Shown here: piece by piece, positions 11,695 through 24,170 of the stretch | Position numbering within the stretch: position 1 is the stretch's first letter | Layout of the letters: each line of letters begins with the position of its first letter | DNA from: Sphingomonas nostoxanthinifaciens | GTDB taxonomy: Bacteria; Pseudomonadota; Alphaproteobacteria; Sphingomonadales; Sphingomonadaceae | Length of the DNA stretch: 64,000 bases | NCBI RefSeq assembly: GCF_019930585.1 | Contig: NZ_CP082839.1 | Span: 930,001 to 994,000, forward strand | Reading direction: 5' to 3' | Translations under genes and position numbers: made by a program | Notes under the pieces: model-generated | The model's database searches: none | Told to the model about the DNA's origin: nothing | The model's input: the letters and a program-made list of their open reading frames with translations, nothing else

Positions 11695-12968
11695 GCGACC
11701 ATCTCCTCGGTGGGAACGTCTTCACGGCTTTTGGGCGGATCGAATGTACGCGCACGCGGCAGTTCGGGGAACAGCACCGACCACAGCAACGTGATGCCGA
11801 TCGCGCCGATGCCGCCCAATACCACCGCCGGCATCGCGCCGATCAGCGCCGCCAGCAATCCCGATTCGGCCTCGCCCAGCTCGTTCGAGCCCGAAATGAA
11901 CAGGGTCGAGACCGCGCCGACGCGGCCGCGCATCTCGTTCGGCGTATAAAGCTGAATCAGGGACTGGCGGACATAGACCGACAGCATGTCGGCCGCGCCC
12001 AGCACCGCCAGCGCGAACAGCGACAGCGGCATCCAGCGCGACAGGCCGAACACCACCGTCGCGGTGCCGAACGTCGCGACCGCGACCAGCATCTTCACGC
12101 CGACATTGGATTGCAGCGGGCGGACCGAGAACCAGATCGCGGCGAGCGTCGCGCCGATCGCGGGCGCGCCGCGCAGGTGGCCGAGCCCGGCCGCGCCGAC
12201 CTGCAGGATGTCGCGCGCATAGATGGGCAGCATCGCGGTCGCGCCGCCGAGCAGCACCGCGAACAGATCGAGGCTGATCGCGCCGAGCACGAGCCGGTTG
12301 CGCCGCACATAATGCAGCCCCTCCACCATCTGCCGCCACGGATTGGCGGTGCGGTCGAGCGTCGTCCGCGTCAGCGGCCGGATCATTCCGATCGACAGGC
12401 CCGCGCCAAGGAACAGCACGCCCGACACGGCATAAGGCAGCCACGGTGCGGCGGCGTAGAGATAGCCGCCGAGCGCGGGGCCGCCGATGCCGCCGATCTG
12501 CCACGCGACCGAGCTGGCCGCGATCGCGCGCGGCAGCACGGCGGGCGGCACGAGATTGGGCGCCAATGCGCCGATCGCCGGGCCGGCGAAGGCGCGCGCC
12601 ACGCCGAGCGTGGCGGCGACGAGGTAGATCACCCACAGGCTGCTCGACCCGGTCCAGGCATGAAGACCGAGCACCAGCGCGCACATGGCCTCGGTCGTCA
12701 GCGTGATCTGCGCGATGCGGCGGCGATCGACGCGATCCGCCGTCCAGCCGGTGACGAGGGTGAGGATCGCGAGCGGCAGGAACTGGCAGACGCCGACCAT
12801 GCCGAGCTGGAATGCGGCCTCCTTCGGCGCCATCGTGCGGCGGGCGAGGTCGTAGACCTGCCAGCCGATCACTACCACCATGCCGTTCTGCGCGACGGTC
12901 GACGCGAAGCGCGCGCCCCACAGGAAACGGAAGTCGCGGATGCTGAACGGCGAGACGGGCGCTGTCAT
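11691..12968 (-). CDS. MFS transporter (MFS_3 / EntS-like)
   Basis: 425 residues with about 12 hydrophobic segments. The N-terminus [29 protein letters not shown] and the loop [10 protein letters not shown] are typical of the EntS-like MFS_3 group, which often exports small molecules. It is the first gene of a two-gene unit with cysK (four-base overlap). The substrate cannot be read from the sequence; a link to cysteine or sulfur metabolism is only suggested by the pairing. Confidence 0.85.
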
Positions 12969-15485: not shown

Positions 15486-16514
15486 ATGGGTTATCGGGTG
15501 GTGGTCGCGGGTGCGACCGGCAATGTCGGGCGCGAGATGCTCAATATTCTTGCCGAGCGCGAGTTCCCGGCGGACGAGATTGCGGCGCTGGCGTCGTCGC
15601 GTTCGACCGGCGACGTGATCGATTTCGGCGAGACCGGCAAGACGCTGACCGTCAAGAATATCGAGCATTTCGATTGGTCTGGCTGGGATATCGCGCTGTT
15701 CGCGATCGGATCGGAAGCCACTAAGAAATATGCGCCGATCGCCGCCGCCGCCGGCTGCACGGTGATCGACAATTCGTCGTTCTACCGCATGGATCCGGAC
15801 GTGCCGCTGATCGTGCCCGAGGTGAACCCCGAGGCGATCGACGGCTATCGCCGCAAGAACATCATCGCCAACCCGAACTGCTCGACCGCGCAGATGGTGG
15901 TCGCGCTGAAGCCGCTGCACGATGCGGCGACGATCAAGCGCGTCGTGGTCGCGACCTATCAGTCGGTGTCGGGCGCGGGCAAGGCGGGCATGGACGAGCT
16001 GTTCGAGCAGAGCCGCAATATCTTCGTCGGCGATCCGGCCGAGCCCAAGAAGTTCACCAAGCAGATCGCGTTCAACGTGATCCCGCACATCGACAGCTTC
16101 CTCGACGACGGCTCGACCAAGGAAGAGTGGAAGATGGTGGTCGAGACCAAGAAGATCCTGGGTTCCAAGATCAAGGTGTCCGCCACCTGCGTGCGCGTGC
16201 CGGTGTTCGTCGGCCACTCGGAAGCGATCAACATCGAGTTCGAGAACGAGATCTCGGCCGACGAGGCGCAGAAGATCCTGCGCGAGGCGCCCGGCGTGAT
16301 GCTGGTCGATAAGCGCGAGGATGGCGGCTACGTCACGCCGATCGAATGCGTCGGTGAATATGCCACCTTCATCAGCCGCGTGCGCGAGGATCCGACGATC
16401 GACAACGGCCTCAGCCTGTGGTGCGTCAGCGACAACCTGCGCAAGGGCGCAGCCCTGAACGCGGTGCAGATCGCGGAACTGCTCGGCCGGCGGCACCTGA
16501 AGAAAGCGGGCTGA
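15486..16514 (+). CDS. asd: aspartate-semialdehyde dehydrogenase
   Basis: 342 residues. It reduces aspartyl phosphate to aspartate semialdehyde, the branch point to lysine/diaminopimelate, threonine and methionine. The NADP-binding motif GATGNVG lies at residues 9-15, the catalytic cysteine is C132 in NPNCSTAQ, and HIDSFLDDGSTKEEWK follows. AAAGGAG lies eight bases before the ATG, a strong ribosome binding site. Monocistronic by spacing. Confidence 0.97.
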   Translation: MGYRVVVAGATGNVGREMLNILAEREFPADEIAALASSRSTGDVIDFGETGKTLTVKNIEHFDWSGWDIALFAIGSEATKKYAPIAAAAGCTVIDNSSFYRMDPDVPLIVPEVNPEAIDGYRRKNIIANPNCSTAQMVVALKPLHDAATIKRVVVATYQSVSGAGKAGMDELFEQSRNIFVGDPAEPKKFTKQIAFNVIPHIDSFLDDGSTKEEWKMVVETKKILGSKIKVSATCVRVPVFVGHSEAINIEFENEISADEAQKILREAPGVMLVDKREDGGYVTPIECVGEYATFISRVREDPTIDNGLSLWCVSDNLRKGAALNAVQIAELLGRRHLKKAG

Positions 16515-16713: not shown

Positions 16714-17583
16714 CTAGGCAAGGCGCCGCGGCGCGGCACGCCGCCGCATCGCCGCGCCGGCAAGGCCGAAACCGCCGACCATCATCGCCCACGATGCGGG
16801 TTCCGGCACGCCCGACGGCGGGACCGGCACGTTGCCGACCGAGCCGGCCTGGATGAACACGGCCGAATCCAAGAGCTTGTCCGAAACGTCGGTGATGCTG
16901 AATGCCAGCGAATATGTCGCACCGACGGTGAGATGGTTCGCCTTGGCGGTCAGCACCGTGGTCAGGCCGTCGAGCTGGATCGGCAGGTTCAGGCTGGGCG
17001 CCGTCGTGTAGGGCGGCACGCTCGCATCCGATCCGGTGGCTTCGTAGCTGTTGTTGCGATAATAAGTGCTGTTCTTGTTCAGGTTGACATTGTTGATCGA
17101 AACCGTGTCGCCGTTCGGAAGCTGGGCAAGGTTTACCGCGCTGTAGCCCGGACCGGTCAGCGTCAGCGTGAACTGGTCGTTGAATTTGCTGCCGACGTAC
17201 GAATTATATTCTTCCGATCCGAAGACATAATTGAAGAACAGGTCGGTGCCGTCGGACTTGAAGGTCATCGTCAGTGTTCGCGACGTTGCCGTATCGGTGT
17301 TGCCGCACGATCCGGATGTGTTGGAACTGCCGATGCAAGCCAAAGTCGAGCCGGTCGACAGCACCACGCCCGAATTGATCCCCAGCGCCGCCATGCCGCC
17401 GGAAAACGTGCCGGCCGCCGCATCGCCGCTCAAGGTCGCGCCAAGCACATGCAGCCCGGTGCCGGACAATGCATTGGCCAGCGCAACGGGGTTGGTCGAA
17501 ACCGATGTCGCCACCGCACTTGCGGTTCCGGCGTTCAGGCATGCGAAAAGTGCCGCGCCAGCGGCAAAAAATCTGATCTTCAT
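16714..17583 (-). CDS. PEPxxWA-CTERM secreted protein with choice-of-anchor L domain
   Basis: 289 residues. Signal peptide MKIRFFAAGAALFACLNAGT; a mature domain with the choice-of-anchor L landmarks LFFNYVFGSEEYNSYVG and NDQFTLTLTG; then the sorting tail GVPEPASWAMMVGGFGLAG and a basic end RRRAAPRR. Such tails are thought to be processed by an exosortase-type enzyme in the inner membrane, often together with exopolysaccharide. I start at MKIRFF rather than four codons upstream. An AT-rich palindromic stretch lies 54-69 bases upstream. Confidence 0.93.
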   Translation of the reverse strand: MKIRFFAAGAALFACLNAGTASAVATSVSTNPVALANALSGTGLHVLGATLSGDAAAGTFSGGMAALGINSGVVLSTGSTLACIGSSNTSGSCGNTDTATSRTLTMTFKSDGTDLFFNYVFGSEEYNSYVGSKFNDQFTLTLTGPGYSAVNLAQLPNGDTVSINNVNLNKNSTYYRNNSYEATGSDASVPPYTTAPSLNLPIQLDGLTTVLTAKANHLTVGATYSLAFSITDVSDKLLDSAVFIQAGSVGNVPVPPSGVPEPASWAMMVGGFGLAGAAMRRRAAPRRLA

Positions 17584-17636
17584 ACGATCCCCCAATCGTC
17601 AACGGCAATCATCTTGCCGTGCGGGAGAATTACATG

Positions 17637-18363: not shown

Positions 18364-18457
18364 GGGTACGCAATCCTCTTCCTGAGCCCGCCAGCCTTGC
18401 CAGACGGCGACGCCTGCGCTTATCGCGCGCCTTTCCGTCATGCACAGGGGAGCCACG

Positions 18458-19228
18458 GTGGCAAGCGCGCTCGACGACCTGCCCGTCCATATCTTCCCCG
18501 GCGCCGATGGCCTGCCGCTCGCCTGGCGCGAGATGGGGGAAGGGCGGCCGCTCGTCCTGATCCACGGCCTGTTCTCGAACGCGTGGACCAACTGGATCCG
18601 CTACGGCCATGCCGCGCGGCTGGCGGAGGCGGGCTTCCGGGTCATCATGCCCGATCTGCGCGGGCATGGCAGCAGCGCCGCGCCGCACGATGCCGCCGCT
18701 TATCCGCCCGACATCCTCGCCGCCGACGGCGAGGCGTTGATCGCGCATCTGGGCCTGACCGATTATGATCTCGGCGGCTATTCGCTCGGCGGGCGGACGA
18801 CGGTGCGGATGGTCGTGCGCCAGCATGTGCGCCCGGCGCGTGCGATCGTCGCGGGCATGGGGCTGGATGGGCTGCACGCCACATCGCGGCGCGGCGACTT
18901 CTTCCGGACGGTGCTGCAGGGCATCGGCATCCATCCGCGCGGATCGGCGATGTGGCAGGCCGAGGCCTTCCTGAAAACCACCGGCGGCGATCCGCTGGCG
19001 TTGCTGCCGTTGCTCGACAGTTTCGTCGACACGACGCCGGAGGAGGTGGCGGCGATCGCGCAGCCGACGCTCGTTCTGTGCGGCGTCGACGATCGCGACA
19101 ATGGATCGGCGGCCGAGCTTGCGGCGTCGCTGCCCCACGGCACGCTGCGCGAGGTGCCCGGCAACCACATGACTGCGGTGCTGCGACCCGAGCTCGCCGC
19201 CGAAATCGTGGCATTTCTGGCACGCTAG
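18458..19228 (+). CDS. alpha/beta hydrolase
   Basis: 256 residues. VLIHGLFSNAWTNW (oxyanion loop), PDLRGHGSS, the nucleophile elbow GGYSLGGRTT and GVDDRDNGS with the final GNHMTAVL (acid and histidine) form a complete catalytic triad. The GTG at 18458 is preferred because AGGGGAG lies about six bases upstream; the in-frame ATG at 18440 has no ribosome binding site. Divergent from the YitT-like gene. Substrate unknown. Confidence 0.82.
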   Translation: MASALDDLPVHIFPGADGLPLAWREMGEGRPLVLIHGLFSNAWTNWIRYGHAARLAEAGFRVIMPDLRGHGSSAAPHDAAAYPPDILAADGEALIAHLGLTDYDLGGYSLGGRTTVRMVVRQHVRPARAIVAGMGLDGLHATSRRGDFFRTVLQGIGIHPRGSAMWQAEAFLKTTGGDPLALLPLLDSFVDTTPEEVAAIAQPTLVLCGVDDRDNGSAAELAASLPHGTLREVPGNHMTAVLRPELAAEIVAFLAR

Positions 19229-19314: not shown

Positions 19315-20469
19315 ATGATTGGTATCCCGCTTCTCGTGGTCGCGGGGCCGTGCCTGTTGATGGCACTGGCCGCCGCGGCGATGGTCGTGGTTCACCAGAC
19401 CTTGAACCCGGCCCGCTACGCGGAAGCATGGGCGGCGGCGTGCGCTCTGGCCGCGGCGGGATGGGCGATGATCGCGATCCGCGGCTTTGCGGGCCTGCCG
19501 CCGCTCCATGTCGGCTTCAACGCCTCGATGCTGCAACTGGCGTCGATCGTGCTGTTCGCCGACGGTTTCCGCATCCGCGCGGGCCGGCCGCACGCGTCGC
19601 TGCCGATCGCGGTGATGACGGGGGGCGGCGTCCTGCTGGCGATCGCATTCGTGGCGTCGCCGATGCCGCTGCGCGCGGCGATCATGCCGCTCGCCTCGCT
19701 GATCCTGTGCGCATGGGCGGCGCGGCTGGTCGTCCTGCCGCGCCAGGCGGCCACGGGTCCGGAGATCGGCGCGATCGGCATGCTCGTGGCGCTCGCCGCG
19801 ATCAATGCGGTGGCCGCCGCGCTGGCGGTGGCGGAACAGGCCGGCCTGCTCGGTTCGCACCATCTCTATGTCGCGCTTTATGCGGTGAGCGCCACGCCGA
19901 GCTGCGCGGCGATGGCCCTGTTCGGATTGCTGCTGGTCGCGGCGGACGTCTCGACCGAACTCAAGCTGGTCCTCCACACCGATCCGCTGACCGGCGTGCT
20001 CAATCGCGAAGGCTTTCGCGAGGCGGCGCAGGCGGCGCTGCGTCGCGCGAGGCCGCGCGCCCGCCCGCTCTCGATCGCGATCGCGGACATTGATCGCTTC
20101 AAGCAGATCAACGATCGCCACGGTCATGCCGCGGGCGACGCGACGCTCGCCAGCTTCGCCGATCACCTCGCGCGGACCGTCGGCGGCGGGGGGACGGTCG
20201 GGCGAATCGGCGGCGAAGAGTTCGCCTTGCTCTTTCCCGGTCGCGACGGCGCGAGCGTGCTGCGCGCGGTCGATCCGGTCAGCAACGCCTGCGCCGACGT
20301 GCGCGTCGACGGCAGCCCACGGGTAAGCGTCACCGCCAGCTTCGGCGTGGCGGAACGCCATCCGGACGAGTCGCTCGACGCGCTGATCGAGCGGGCCGAC
20401 CGTGCGCTCTACCGATCGAAACGCGAGGGCCGCAACCGTGCGACGCTCGCGCAGGCGGCTTCGGCCTGA
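19315..20469 (+). CDS. membrane diguanylate cyclase (GGDEF), first of three
   Basis: 384 residues. The N-terminal 190 or so form six to seven hydrophobic segments with no recognised sensor family. The C-terminal GGDEF domain has DIDRFKQINDRHGHAAGD and the active-site loop GGEEF at residues 299-303, so cyclic-di-GMP synthesis is expected. The RxxD inhibition site, five residues before the loop, is absent: the sequence there is Gly-rich. The stop is six bases before the next cyclase's start, so the two should be co-transcribed. Confidence 0.93.
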   Translation: MIGIPLLVVAGPCLLMALAAAAMVVVHQTLNPARYAEAWAAACALAAAGWAMIAIRGFAGLPPLHVGFNASMLQLASIVLFADGFRIRAGRPHASLPIAVMTGGGVLLAIAFVASPMPLRAAIMPLASLILCAWAARLVVLPRQAATGPEIGAIGMLVALAAINAVAAALAVAEQAGLLGSHHLYVALYAVSATPSCAAMALFGLLLVAADVSTELKLVLHTDPLTGVLNREGFREAAQAALRRARPRARPLSIAIADIDRFKQINDRHGHAAGDATLASFADHLARTVGGGGTVGRIGGEEFALLFPGRDGASVLRAVDPVSNACADVRVDGSPRVSVTASFGVAERHPDESLDALIERADRALYRSKREGRNRATLAQAASA

Positions 20470-20475
20470 GCGAAG

Positions 20476-21627
20476 GTGCCGGACGCGTCGTTCATCCTGC
20501 CGGCGACCTTGTTCGGTATCAGCGCGCTGATGGCGACCGTGCTGCTGCTATCCTGGCTGGAATTCGGCCGGCCGCGCCATGCGCTGAGCTGGACGATCGC
20601 CTTCGCTTTGTTCGCCTGCGCGTGGGCGGTGCGGACGGCGCGCAGCCTAAGCGTGGCGCCGGAATGGACATTGGTGGTGGTGCTGTGCCTCAGCATCTGG
20701 GGGCTGACGCTCGACGTGCTCGGCTTTCGCCAGCGGGCCGGCATGCCGGAGCGGCGCGGCATCCTGTTCGCCGCTGCCCTGGTCACGTCGGCGCTGATGA
20801 TCGTCGCGGCCCGGCCGACGACGGCCGTTTCCGCATGGCTGCTGCCGTTCGCCATCTGCGTGGCGGGGCTGTGCCTGCTCGCCGCGGCGAGCGTGAGCGG
20901 CCGGCGGCGTAGCGAGCGCGCGGCGACCGCCATCGCGCATTACGGCATGATCGTGCTCGCCTCCGCTGCGATCGCGGTGGCGGCGGGCGCGGCCGCCGAC
21001 CGCGCCGGGCTCGCCGCGCTCGACATCGGCCGGCTCGATACATTGCTGATGCTGCTGCTGCCGGGCGCGGTCACGGCGAGCGGCCTGTTCGTGATCCTGC
21101 TGCTCGCGGCGGATCTGGCCGATCGGACTCGGCGCCTGGCGGCGACCGACATGCTGACCGGCCTGCTCAACCGGCGCGGGCTGGAGGCGGCCGTGCCGCG
21201 CGTGCTGGACAGCGCGCGCCGCGGCGAGCGGCCGATGACGCTCGCGTTGTTCGACATCGACCATTTCAAGCAGATCAACGATCGGTTCGGCCACGGCGGC
21301 GGCGACATGGTGCTGCGCGCGGTCGCCGATTTCATGCGCCAGACGCTGGCGCCGCGCGATCTGGCGGCGCGAATCGGCGGCGAGGAATTCGCCGTTCTGA
21401 TGACCGATGCCGGCCGTTTCGATGCCGCGCATGCGGCGGAGCGGTTGCGCGCCGGGATGGAACGCTGCGCGGAGATGCTGACGCGTGACTTTTGTGTTAC
21501 CGCTAGCTTCGGATTAACCGACGTCCGCGCGGATGACGCGGAGTTGGCTGGTCTTCTAGCGAGAGCGGATATGGCCCTTTATCGATCCAAGGATGCAGGG
21601 CGGAATTGCGTGACGTGGGCCACCTAG
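20476..21627 (+). CDS. membrane diguanylate cyclase (GGDEF), second of three
   Basis: 383 residues, GTG start just after the previous stop. The N-terminal half is again six to seven hydrophobic segments. It is followed by DMLTGLLNRRGLE, DIDHFKQINDRFGHGGGD and the active loop GGEEF at about residues 301-305. The position where RxxD would sit reads APRD, so the inhibition site is probably lost. Same layout as its neighbours, consistent with tandem duplication followed by divergence of the membrane part. Confidence 0.93.
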   Translation: MPDASFILPATLFGISALMATVLLLSWLEFGRPRHALSWTIAFALFACAWAVRTARSLSVAPEWTLVVVLCLSIWGLTLDVLGFRQRAGMPERRGILFAAALVTSALMIVAARPTTAVSAWLLPFAICVAGLCLLAAASVSGRRRSERAATAIAHYGMIVLASAAIAVAAGAAADRAGLAALDIGRLDTLLMLLLPGAVTASGLFVILLLAADLADRTRRLAATDMLTGLLNRRGLEAAVPRVLDSARRGERPMTLALFDIDHFKQINDRFGHGGGDMVLRAVADFMRQTLAPRDLAARIGGEEFAVLMTDAGRFDAAHAAERLRAGMERCAEMLTRDFCVTASFGLTDVRADDAELAGLLARADMALYRSKDAGRNCVTWAT

Positions 21628-21691
21628 GCCCGCCGGCTGCCCCAGATCGCCTTTCGAGGCACCCGATTTCAGTCGGGTTCCCATATTAACC

Positions 21692-22855
21692 ATGATGGTC
21701 GCGGTCGTCCTGGCGATGCCCTTGGCGGTGGCTGCCCTGTTCGCGGCCGCGCTCGCGTCGATCTGGCGCGGCCGGCGTGCCGCCGCGCATGCCGCAAGCT
21801 GGGCCGGCGCGTTTGTCATGCTTGCGCTCGGCTGGCTTGCGGTGCTGGCGCGCGCGTCGGCACTCGACCGGCTCTCCGTCGTCGGGCTGGCGCCCAATCT
21901 GTGCTGGCTCGCGGCGGCGCTCGGACTGGTCCATGGCCTGCGCCAGCGCGCCGGGCGGCACGATCGTGCCGGGCGGCTTGGCGCGATCTGGGTGGCGATC
22001 GCGCTGGCCTTCGCGCTGCTGGCCGACGTCGCGCCGGCGCTGGATGGCGCGGTCGTCGCGACCATCGCGCTGCTGACCGGGCTCGGCCTGATCTGCGCGG
22101 CGGTGGCGGTCGGCCCACGTCGGCTGCTGCGGCAACAGCGCTTCGACTGGCTGGCGGCGATCTTGCTGGGCTGCTTCGCCCTCGCCAATCTGATCTATGC
22201 CGGACTGCTGCTGGCGGGGGTCGACATCGACGCCCGCGTGGCGGCGGCGGGGGCGCTGGTGGCGGCGCTCGGCTATGTCGTGCTCGGCCTCGGCGCCGTG
22301 CTGATGCTCAACCGCGATCTGTGCGTCGCGCTCGAGCGGCTGGCGCGCACCGATCCGCTCACCGGCGTGTGGAACCGCCGCGGCTTCGACGAGGCGGCGC
22401 CGCACCTGCTCGCGCGGCTGCGCGCGCGCGGCGGTGGCAGGGCGGCGGTGGCGATCGCCGACATCGATTCGTTCAAGGCGATCAACGATCGCTTCGGCCA
22501 CACCGTGGGCGATGCGGTGCTGCGCAGCTTCGCCGCGACGCTGGGCCAGGCGGTGCGTTCCGGCGACCTGCTCGCGCGGCTGGGCGGCGAGGAATTCGCC
22601 TTGCTCGCGATCGACACCGATGCCGACGAGCTGGTCGCCCGCGTGGAGGAGGTGCGCGCGCAGGTGCGCCTGCCGCACGAGGATCGCGCCGGGCTGCCCC
22701 CGGTCACCGCCAGCTTCGGCGTCGCCGCGCTCGACCCTGAAACGCTGGCGCTGCGCGACGGGCTGGAGCGCGCCGACCGCGCGCTGTATCGCGCCAAGCG
22801 GACGGGACGCGACCGCACCGTGCTCGACGGCAGCCCGGACGCGCCGGCCGAGTGA
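21692..22855 (+). CDS. membrane diguanylate cyclase (GGDEF), third of three
   Basis: 387 residues, 64 bases after the second cyclase. N-terminal membrane part of about 200 residues, then TDPLTGVWNRRGFDE, DIDSFKAINDRFGHTVGD and GGEEF at about residues 298-302. Unlike the other two, it keeps an RxxD site (RSGD, residues 289-292) at the correct distance, so it should be subject to feedback inhibition by cyclic-di-GMP. Two ATGs stand side by side at the start; either may be used. Confidence 0.93.
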   Translation: MMVAVVLAMPLAVAALFAAALASIWRGRRAAAHAASWAGAFVMLALGWLAVLARASALDRLSVVGLAPNLCWLAAALGLVHGLRQRAGRHDRAGRLGAIWVAIALAFALLADVAPALDGAVVATIALLTGLGLICAAVAVGPRRLLRQQRFDWLAAILLGCFALANLIYAGLLLAGVDIDARVAAAGALVAALGYVVLGLGAVLMLNRDLCVALERLARTDPLTGVWNRRGFDEAAPHLLARLRARGGGRAAVAIADIDSFKAINDRFGHTVGDAVLRSFAATLGQAVRSGDLLARLGGEEFALLAIDTDADELVARVEEVRAQVRLPHEDRAGLPPVTASFGVAALDPETLALRDGLERADRALYRAKRTGRDRTVLDGSPDAPAE

Positions 22856-22937: not shown

Positions 22938-24170
22938 ATGTCTCATCTGTTCAGCCTGATCGGCGTCCTCGTTATCCTGGCGCTCGCGGTCGGGCTGTCG
23001 TCCAACCGCCGCTGGATCCGGCTGCGCGTCGTCGGCGCGGCGTTCGCGCTGCAGGCGGGTATCGCCGTGCTGGTGCTGTACGTGCCCGCCGGGCGCGCCA
23101 CGATCGCGTGGCTGGCGCGGGGCGTCGGCAATCTGCTGGCTTATGCGGGCGAGGGCACGGCCTTCCTGTTCGGGCCGTTCGCGGCGTCGGATCTCGGCCG
23201 CAACTTCGCGCTGCAGGCGCTGCCAGTCATCATCTTCTTCGCCAGCCTCGTCTCGATTCTCTATCATCTTGGCGTGATGCAGCGGGTGGTGCGCTGGCTG
23301 GGCGGCGCGCTGGAGGCGGTGATCGGCATCAGCAAGGTCGAGGCGCTGTGCGCCGCCGCCAACATCTTCGTCGGCCAGTCGGAAGCGCCATTGGTCATCC
23401 GCCCCTATCTGGCCGGGCTGCGCCCGACCCAATTGTTCCAGGTGATGACCAGCGGCATGGCCGGCGTCGCCGGCACCATCCTCGCCGCTTATGCCTCGAT
23501 GGGAGTGCGGATCGACTATCTGCTGGCGGCGAGCTTCATGTCGGCGCCGGGCGCGATCCTGATGGCGAAGATCATCATGCCCGATGATCCCGAGCAGCTC
23601 GCGCTGCCGATCACCGAGATGGTCGACACCAGCCATGCCGAGGGCGACGAGCGACCCGCCAACGTCATCATGGCGGCGGCGCAGGGCGCGCAGCTCGGCG
23701 TGCGGCTGGCGGTGATGGTCGGCGCGATGGTGTTCGCGTTCGTCGGGCTGGTCGCGCTCGGCAACGGCATCCTCACCGGCGTGGGCGAGTGGGTCGGCAT
23801 CGCCGGCCTCACCTTCCAGCGATTGCTGGGCTTCATCTTCGCGCCGGTGATGGCGTTGCTCGGCGTGCCGTGGAGCCAGGCAGGGCTGGCGGGCGGCCTG
23901 TTCGGCGAGAAGATCGTGCTGAACGAGTTCGTCGCCTACATCCACATGGAGAAGCTCGGCGCTGCGCTGGACGCGCATGCGCAGGCGGTCGCGACCTTCG
24001 CCTTATGCGGCTTCGCCAATTTCAGCTCGATCGCGATCCAGATGGCGGTGACGGGCGGGCTCGCCCCCAACCAGCGGCCGCTGATCGCGAAGCTGGGGAT
24101 CAAGGCGCTGCTGGCGGGCAGCCTCGCCAACCTGATGTCGGCGGCTTTGGCGGGGATGCTGGTCGGCTAA
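22938..24170 (+). CDS. concentrative nucleoside transporter (NupC family)
   Basis: 410 residues. CNT transporters import nucleosides using a proton or sodium gradient. Landmarks: VIIFFASLVSILYHLGVMQ, ANIFVGQSEAPLVIRPYL (the GQSEAP nucleoside-binding loop), TSGMAGVAGTILAAYASMGV and EKIVLNEFVAY, then CGFANFSSIAIQ. All conserved blocks are present, with about ten hydrophobic segments. Monocistronic; it converges on alr. Confidence 0.95.
   Translation: MSHLFSLIGVLVILALAVGLSSNRRWIRLRVVGAAFALQAGIAVLVLYVPAGRATIAWLARGVGNLLAYAGEGTAFLFGPFAASDLGRNFALQALPVIIFFASLVSILYHLGVMQRVVRWLGGALEAVIGISKVEALCAAANIFVGQSEAPLVIRPYLAGLRPTQLFQVMTSGMAGVAGTILAAYASMGVRIDYLLAASFMSAPGAILMAKIIMPDDPEQLALPITEMVDTSHAEGDERPANVIMAAAQGAQLGVRLAVMVGAMVFAFVGLVALGNGILTGVGEWVGIAGLTFQRLLGFIFAPVMALLGVPWSQAGLAGGLFGEKIVLNEFVAYIHMEKLGAALDAHAQAVATFALCGFANFSSIAIQMAVTGGLAPNQRPLIAKLGIKALLAGSLANLMSAALAGMLVG

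Follow-up and report, generated by a model that had tools for sequence, protein, structure and literature searches.

Three adjacent diguanylate cyclases of Sphingomonas nostoxanthinifaciens share a seven-helix membrane domain and probably form an old tandem set

The DNA analysed here (the window: 64,000 nucleotides, bases 930001-994000 of one 4.30 Mb contig of Sphingomonas nostoxanthinifaciens) carries three consecutive genes for membrane diguanylate cyclases, all on the + strand: DGC1 (19315..20469, ATG start, 384 amino acids (aa)), DGC2 (20476..21627, GTG start, 383 aa) and DGC3 (21692..22855, ATG start, 387 aa), positions being counted from the first base of the window. Gaps of 6 bases (DGC1-DGC2) and 64 bases (DGC2-DGC3) separate them. 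Each encodes a seven-transmembrane (7TM) N-terminal half followed by a GGDEF domain, the latter matched in Pfam at E 1.1e-34, 6.1e-39 and 2.2e-40 respectively, and together they make up 3 of the 21 GGDEF places found genome-wide, with no others in the window. The initial annotation of the window, made from its sequence, had singled out three consecutive genes of 383-387 residues with these spacings and an intact GGEEF loop, which open reading frames and a motif check confirm; it had also stated that the N-terminal halves hold no recognised sensor domain, and this is true of the Pfam and NCBIfam scans.

Each protein has one Pfam GGDEF match, at residues about 219-377, scoring 120-139 bits against a cut-off of 23.8 (E 1e-34 to 2e-40); no other Pfam family rises above cut-off in DGC1, DGC2 or DGC3, and in NCBIfam TIGR00254 (GGDEF domain) is the sole model to do so. 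The top-scoring NCBIfam model of all three cyclase halves is SiaD (143-153 bits), but these scores fall well short of its equivalog cut-off (290 bits) and the N-terminal parts differ; the likeness is to the GGDEF domains of SiaD and PleD, and solved GGDEF-only structures superpose on DGC2 at about 1.5-3 Å root-mean-square deviation. All three proteins have a complete GGEEF loop and complete DIDxFKxIND...GD motifs and fit the active pattern of a GG(D/E)EF loop with DxD.FK..ND...GD and K..GR; we take these conserved residues to bind metal and GTP as in PleD. The three enzymes look able to synthesize cyclic dimeric guanosine monophosphate (c-di-GMP). Pairwise, their GGDEF halves are 44-52% identical (z 19.7-22.0 over shuffled sequence), and within their own genome DGC1 and DGC3 are each other's best GGDEF match.

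The primary inhibitory site of such enzymes is an RxxD motif five residues ahead of the GGDEF loop. DGC1 has GGGG in this position and DGC2 APRD, both without RxxD, while DGC3 has RSGD, in which the motif is present. Among the orthologues described below RxxD is kept in 0/3 of the DGC1 set, 1/3 of the DGC2 set and 3/5 of the DGC3 set (the fragment L098 being excluded), and in 14/14 of the locus proteins that lie outside the three sets. Lack of the motif is common in the genome as a whole: of 17 GGDEF places whose loop can be recognised, 6 carry RxxD. The product probably limits DGC3 through this site, and DGC1 and DGC2 probably escape such control. Elsewhere in the genome there is a second close pair of GGDEF places, L009 (C1:1039922-1040377) and L002 (C1:1037637-1038101), both on the - strand and about 1.8 kb apart; an in-frame TAA lies inside one of the two GGDEF domains, which may thus belong to a broken cyclase gene.

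The membrane halves occupy 19315..19965 in DGC1, 20476..21120 in DGC2 and 21692..22327 in DGC3 (all +), each with 7-8 hydrophobic peaks at corresponding positions. They are 29-34% identical pairwise, with z 5.7-7.6 against shuffles. Identity is uninformative here, shuffled hydrophobic N-half sequence reaching 27.6-29.6% (DGC1-DGC3, at 28.7%, compares with 29.6% for its own shuffles), and homology of the N-halves therefore rests on scores, colinear motifs and profiles; by score, alignment half by half, the check first proposed for these proteins, places both halves above shuffled sequence. DGC1 and DGC3 match the N-domain profile at E 1e-49 and E 4e-48, each being itself a member of it. Compared with Pfam, 25 N-halves gave no credible family (the best, EamA, at E 0.007 in 1/25, is read as chance), nor did 50 N-halves compared with NCBIfam (best an antiporter subunit, E 4e-4 in 1/50, read likewise). 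A phage holin family match in one distant relative (E 9e-4, below cut-off) and the ligand-gated channels returned at E 0.13 or worse by a PDB sequence search with the N-domain profile were also taken as chance.

The domain is found well beyond this locus. A 25-sequence profile has matches in 59/397 genomes of the order (17/83 genera), and a 50-sequence profile in 39/398 genomes of the phylum, other classes included (26/213 genera). Of 30 loci kept from the search of the order, 20 join the domain to GGDEF and 10, all from g22, have no GGDEF in the stretch examined; of 30 kept from the phylum, 27 carry domain and GGDEF, two (L198, L223) are without GGDEF, and one (L227) proved off-profile on rescoring. 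In g22 it forms the N-terminal part of proteins of about 985 aa, and the 2/2 that were analysed in full (L168 2366-5317; L169 2587-5544) are hybrid histidine kinases, in which PAS, HisKA, HATPase and receiver domains follow. The domain, present on hybrid kinases too, thus behaves as an input module. The search of the N-termini with profile models that had been suggested at the outset yields no named family, but it also reveals one 7TM domain common to the three halves, to many genomes and to histidine kinases. In the genome of S. nostoxanthinifaciens, DGC1-3 alone among the 21 GGDEF places match the N-domain profile well (four proteins are cut at the locus edge, and their N-ends rest on six-frame searches). 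L019 (C1:1273091-1273303, +), a 273-aa GGDEF protein with about four helices, matches profile positions 13-86 weakly (E 2.5e-4 and 22 bits with one profile search, E 0.28 in another), either by chance or as a shortened relative. Another protein of similar size, L011 (398 aa, seven hydrophobic stretches), might have been a dispersed copy, but it was dismissed because its N-half is off-profile and its GGDEF domain lies outside the group.

Structural modelling covered DGC2. AlphaFold gave a predicted local distance difference test (pLDDT) of 92.0 and a predicted template modelling score (pTM) of 0.83 for the full-length protein, and 91.4 and 0.88 for the N-domain, which was modelled alone because the best 50 rows of the full-length fold search were all GGDEF structures. 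The model has seven helices, at residues 4-29, 34-58, 64-87, 94-111, 118-140, 145-176 and 184-223, joined by short loops, and the last of them continues into the GGDEF domain. By hand count, 13/18 of the Arg residues in DGC2 1-225 lie on the predicted inner side; their placement and the cytoplasmic GGDEF domain fit an N-out/C-in topology. Mean entropy is 2.06 bits in the cytoplasmic helix halves and 2.46 bits in the periplasmic halves, with 0/10,000 position shuffles as extreme, a test that is indicative, since adjacent positions depend on one another. Conservation is highest at H35, W39, G83, R87 and D213 (DGC2 numbering), near the inner face. Conserved cytoplasmic and variable periplasmic halves would suit a transduction base shared by the copies and an input side that diverges.

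The same features bear on the idea that the membrane half is a mere anchor, which positions the cyclase and senses nothing. It would account for the short loops of the model, for the poor conservation of the outer helix halves, and for the failure of the Pfam and NCBIfam scans to recognise a ligand-binding domain. However, seven helices, conserved inner-face residues and reuse on a hybrid histidine kinase exceed what an anchor needs, and the last helix runs unbroken into the GGDEF domain, a usual route for signals. We consider an anchor quite unlikely.

Several known systems have a comparable layout. Cyclases with MASE1 or MASE2 N-termini, such as E. coli DgcE and AdrA/DgcC, likewise consist of an integral multi-helix membrane domain and then GGDEF. 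Pfam nevertheless matched no MASE family here, and for MASE1 (PF05231) neither DGC1-3 nor 25 N-halves gave a hit at E up to 1; hhalign against an 11-sequence MASE1 alignment returned a probability of 0.8%, and the MASE1 model has 299 positions, compared with about 215 residues and seven helices in the DGC N-domain. In 7TMR-DISM and HisKA_7TM proteins seven helices are joined to cytoplasmic outputs (GGDEF, histidine kinase), as here, but the DGC N-domain has no extracytoplasmic domain ahead of its helices. HisKA_7TM (PF16927) gave no Pfam match and an hhalign probability of 0.4% against an alignment of three sequences. 7TMR-DISM (PF07695) gave no Pfam match at E up to 1; the DGC2 models too have seven helices before a signalling output, a likeness of layout and not of kinship. 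Membership in MASE1 or HisKA_7TM is thus unsupported by profile comparison. A 2022 review counts MASE1 and MHYT as membrane sensor domains whose function is unknown (PMC8846402).

In fold searches the N-domain resembles rhodopsins and G-protein-coupled receptors, which make up most of the best 50 VIA-align rows (Z 13.7-15.3 over 200-222 residues, identity 4-12%); but a Z under about 13 may mean no more than a common helical arrangement and unmatched helical models have a best Z that is typically 14, and with Z so near that value we read the resemblance as a shared seven-helix layout, not kinship. Foldseek gave a best E of 0.02, with none under 0.001; rhodopsins and G-protein-coupled receptors again head its list, and designed helical proteins are also in the best 50. 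Retinal sensing was rejected because the parts that span the membrane have no lysine: none occurs within residues 1-225 of DGC2 or DGC3, and the one in DGC1, at 217, is in the inner extension of helix 7.

The age of the copies was judged from trees of each half. Searches with the N-halves covered 40 genomes (relatives plus own) and 7 genomes of the genus, own included. The GGDEF tree has 47 rows, of which 26 are locus-type (including a relocated copy from S. vulcanisoli, G004), 15 are other own-genome domains and 6 other G004 domains; it omits G004_L137, as well as L009, L020 and L021 (stop or short domain). The membrane-half tree has 25 rows, and from it and from the alignments L098, a 234-aa fragment, was excluded. 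In the GGDEF tree DGC1, DGC2 and DGC3 each fall with their own orthologues, with support of 98/94, 98/92 and 98/100; the membrane-half tree returns the identical three groups, at 99/96, 100/99 and 100/100. The two halves have thus stayed joined, and the copies predate the species. In seven orthologue pairs the N-half is 30-53% identical and the GGDEF half 48-70%; the paralogues, measured alongside them, are 22-25% and 42-49% identical in these halves.

These results decide against a recent tandem triplication, in this species or its closest kin, which the three near-equal lengths, the 6- and 64-base gaps and the reciprocal best match of DGC1 and DGC3 might have suggested. Each copy joins foreign orthologues with bootstrap values of 98-100 in both halves; forcing the trio of the window into one clade costs 207 log-likelihood units and is rejected (approximately unbiased test, p-AU 7e-77); and paralogue identity is low in both halves. 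The half-trees and the clade test together rule recent duplication out, in that it could be rescued only if gene conversion had misled both halves in several species, and we give it virtually no credence.

At the other extreme, independent cyclases might have been gathered at one locus by chance or transfer. The best own-genome GGDEF match of DGC2 is L004, a MASE1 protein (104.0 bits, against 103.5 for DGC1), and monophyly of the locus type is modestly supported. Yet one branch separates the 26 locus-type GGDEF domains from the 21 others (support 74/90), the N-halves are homologous and colinear, and apart from the short, weak match of L019 no other own-genome GGDEF protein fits their profile; an independent origin is accordingly very unlikely. 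The initial annotation had named as the outcome that would exclude local duplication a grouping of each GGDEF half with unrelated cyclases elsewhere; this was looked for and not found, at the 74/90 support just given. Its proposal of tandem duplication with diverging membrane halves holds as to common descent and the faster change of the N-halves; the duplication is not recent, given the orthologue clades and the rejected window clade. A further tree of 57 rows, hand-picked and made by a quick method (six locus rows, L098 plus five near-duplicates, are omitted from it, as are the proteins of kinase type and many single rows), makes DGC1 and DGC3 sisters (approximate likelihood-ratio support, SH-aLRT, 90) and puts DGC2 with proteins of other sphingomonads (80). 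The trees point to an old, local expansion of cyclases into separate orthologue groups that predate the species.

The neighbourhood of the genes has a similar history. Directly upstream of DGC1, across an 86-base gap, is an alpha/beta-hydrolase gene (18440..19228, +; Pfam Abhydrolase_1, E 2e-17). One to three such cyclases occur in 6/7 genomes of the genus, most of them adjoining this conserved hydrolase, of which six orthologues are 63-68% identical; within this set of 7 the genome G003 gave no N-half match. Orthologues of DGC1 and DGC2 adjoin in Sphingomonas vulcanisoli (G004, L055) and in a metagenome-assembled genome (MAG) from lichen (G005, L056), those of DGC3 are present in G001, G002, G004 and G006, and the hydrolase directly precedes DGC1-DGC2 or DGC3 in G004, G005, G006, G001 and G002. 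The DGC3 orthologue of S. vulcanisoli has been relocated 17-18 kb off, beside an FtsH-type gene. When named genomes were scanned with the hydrolase alignment, a same-strand GGDEF gene was seen to follow the hydrolase in 18 of the best 80 of 224 relatives' loci (3 of the other 62 have < 3.5 kb of downstream sequence), immediately in 5/18 and after a gap of 1.9-2.5 kb in 13/18. In five of these 13 loci, examined gene by gene, the gap holds one gene, 600-634 aa long, and the example that was identified encodes an M2 peptidase (E 9e-212). A single cyclase is present in 15/18 loci and two in a row in 3/18. The comparison across sphingomonads proposed at the outset shows a patchwork of hydrolase-linked cyclases, with one or two copies in relatives against the three here.

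The tandem pairs of L055 and L056 overlap by 4 bases, as does that of S. colocasiae (L106) with the ATG at 12883 as start (58 bases by longest open reading frame). The first cyclase of the S. colocasiae pair (L106 11729-12886) has the loop GQAEF, off the catalytic pattern, and keeps RxxD; it is perhaps a degenerate partner of an active copy. Tandem 7TM-GGDEF pairs are also seen in family f16 of the same class (g107, g151): there are seven (L228-L234), one of which (L232) has another predicted gene in between. They lie at a different locus, near what we take, from its sequence, to be a leuC-like gene in 3/4 of those annotated (L230, L232, L234). The members of the five f16 pairs in the 57-row tree (L228, L230, L231, L232, L234) fall in two clades, neither of them inside the group of the window.

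Such pairs raise the prospect that neighbouring copies form mixed GGDEF dimers and so act as one combinatorial receptor instead of three parallel sensors. Cyclases work as dimers; the DGC1 and DGC2 genes stay adjacent, with the 4-base overlap, in S. vulcanisoli and the lichen MAG; pairs recur at another locus in another family; and the GQAEF loop of the first S. colocasiae copy is what would be expected of a regulatory partner. On the other hand DGC3 is solitary beside the hydrolase in L048, L049 and G001, 15/18 cyclase-bearing loci have a single copy, and catalytic motifs are intact in all three window copies. Mixed dimers are in our estimate unlikely.

In relatives the right neighbours of the row are genes for AMP nucleosidase, peroxiredoxin, an AlgH-like protein and adenosylhomocysteine hydrolase. 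In the window a NupC-type nucleoside transporter gene (22938..24170, +; Pfam and NCBIfam scans) replaces the AMP nucleosidase and peroxiredoxin genes of relatives (L041, L042, L044, L045). On the left is the aspartate-semialdehyde dehydrogenase gene, asd (15486..16514, +; Pfam Semialdhyde_dhC, E 1e-58), separated from the hydrolase by two minus-strand genes, for a YitT protein and for a protein with a PEP-CTERM sorting motif at its end (16714-17595, -; E 4e-6). A gene with the asd N-terminus is called ahead of the hydrolase in L041, L042, L046 and L097; none is called in L044, L045, L070, L074 and L106, nor in G001 and G002, with a caller that missed the window's own asd too. Tight spacing on a single strand suggests that DGC1-3 may be transcribed jointly with the hydrolase. 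A terminator scan gave one terminator-like site, within DGC1, against 2.1 expected, and is uninformative.

Taken together, the row is probably a tandem set of membrane diguanylate cyclases of old origin, in which the 7TM domain of each of the three would take up an input and transmit it through helix 7, with inputs that would differ from copy to copy. A small or membrane-borne ligand, or some other membrane state, would act on the variable outer half of the domain; the conserved inner face (H35, W39, G83, R87, D213) would relay the resulting helix movement by way of helix 7; and movement of helix 7 would align two GGDEF domains in a dimer, which would then make c-di-GMP. The inputs of the three copies most likely differ; the initial annotation had proposed that they sense related signals, and they may feed one c-di-GMP pool. 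Some observations weigh against parts of this account. Monophyly of the locus-type GGDEF domains has moderate support (74/90). As to the deeper order of duplication, the tests allow a clade of all three sets (p 0.38) as well as one of DGC1 and DGC2 (p 0.148), groups that were chosen once the tree was known. The faster change of the membrane half may also reflect weak constraint on residues that face the lipid, and 5/18 of the DGC2 Arg residues are on the predicted outer side. As to joint transcription, a strict operon is disfavoured by the 64-base gap before DGC3 and by the position of DGC3 17-18 kb off in S. vulcanisoli; a promoter scan found 0 against 0.3 expected, a result that says little in this organism.

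A wider reading, for and against which we find the case evenly balanced, is that these proteins carry an undescribed portable 7TM receptor domain that Pseudomonadota attach mostly to GGDEF enzymes and, in one lineage, to hybrid kinases; it would have a conserved inner face and a fast-changing outer half, and its recurrent tandem sets (here, in S. colocasiae and at the f16 locus) would diverge in input and in product feedback.

Paralogous cyclases in a row have precedents. Leptospira interrogans has seven such diguanylate cyclase genes (LA2926-LA2933), for which the authors propose one ancestor; they are PAS-GGDEF and not 7TM-GGDEF proteins, and of an unrelated lineage (PMC5932348). The present addition is a 7TM input domain absent from the libraries searched and found on kinases as well, together with a tandem set of old origin at a conserved locus; among the matches listed for the literature on MASE/7TM cyclases, sphingomonad c-di-GMP, tandem cyclases and HisKA_7TM, with subscription papers mostly outside that scope, we recognised no account of this domain or locus. 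The inputs of many diguanylate cyclases are unknown because their membrane parts have no library name. A defined 7TM domain with a conserved base, on cyclases and on kinases, is a family open to modelling, mutation and swapping, and one copy with RxxD beside two without, together with single-copy relatives, offers a natural experiment on the division of labour among paralogous c-di-GMP inputs.

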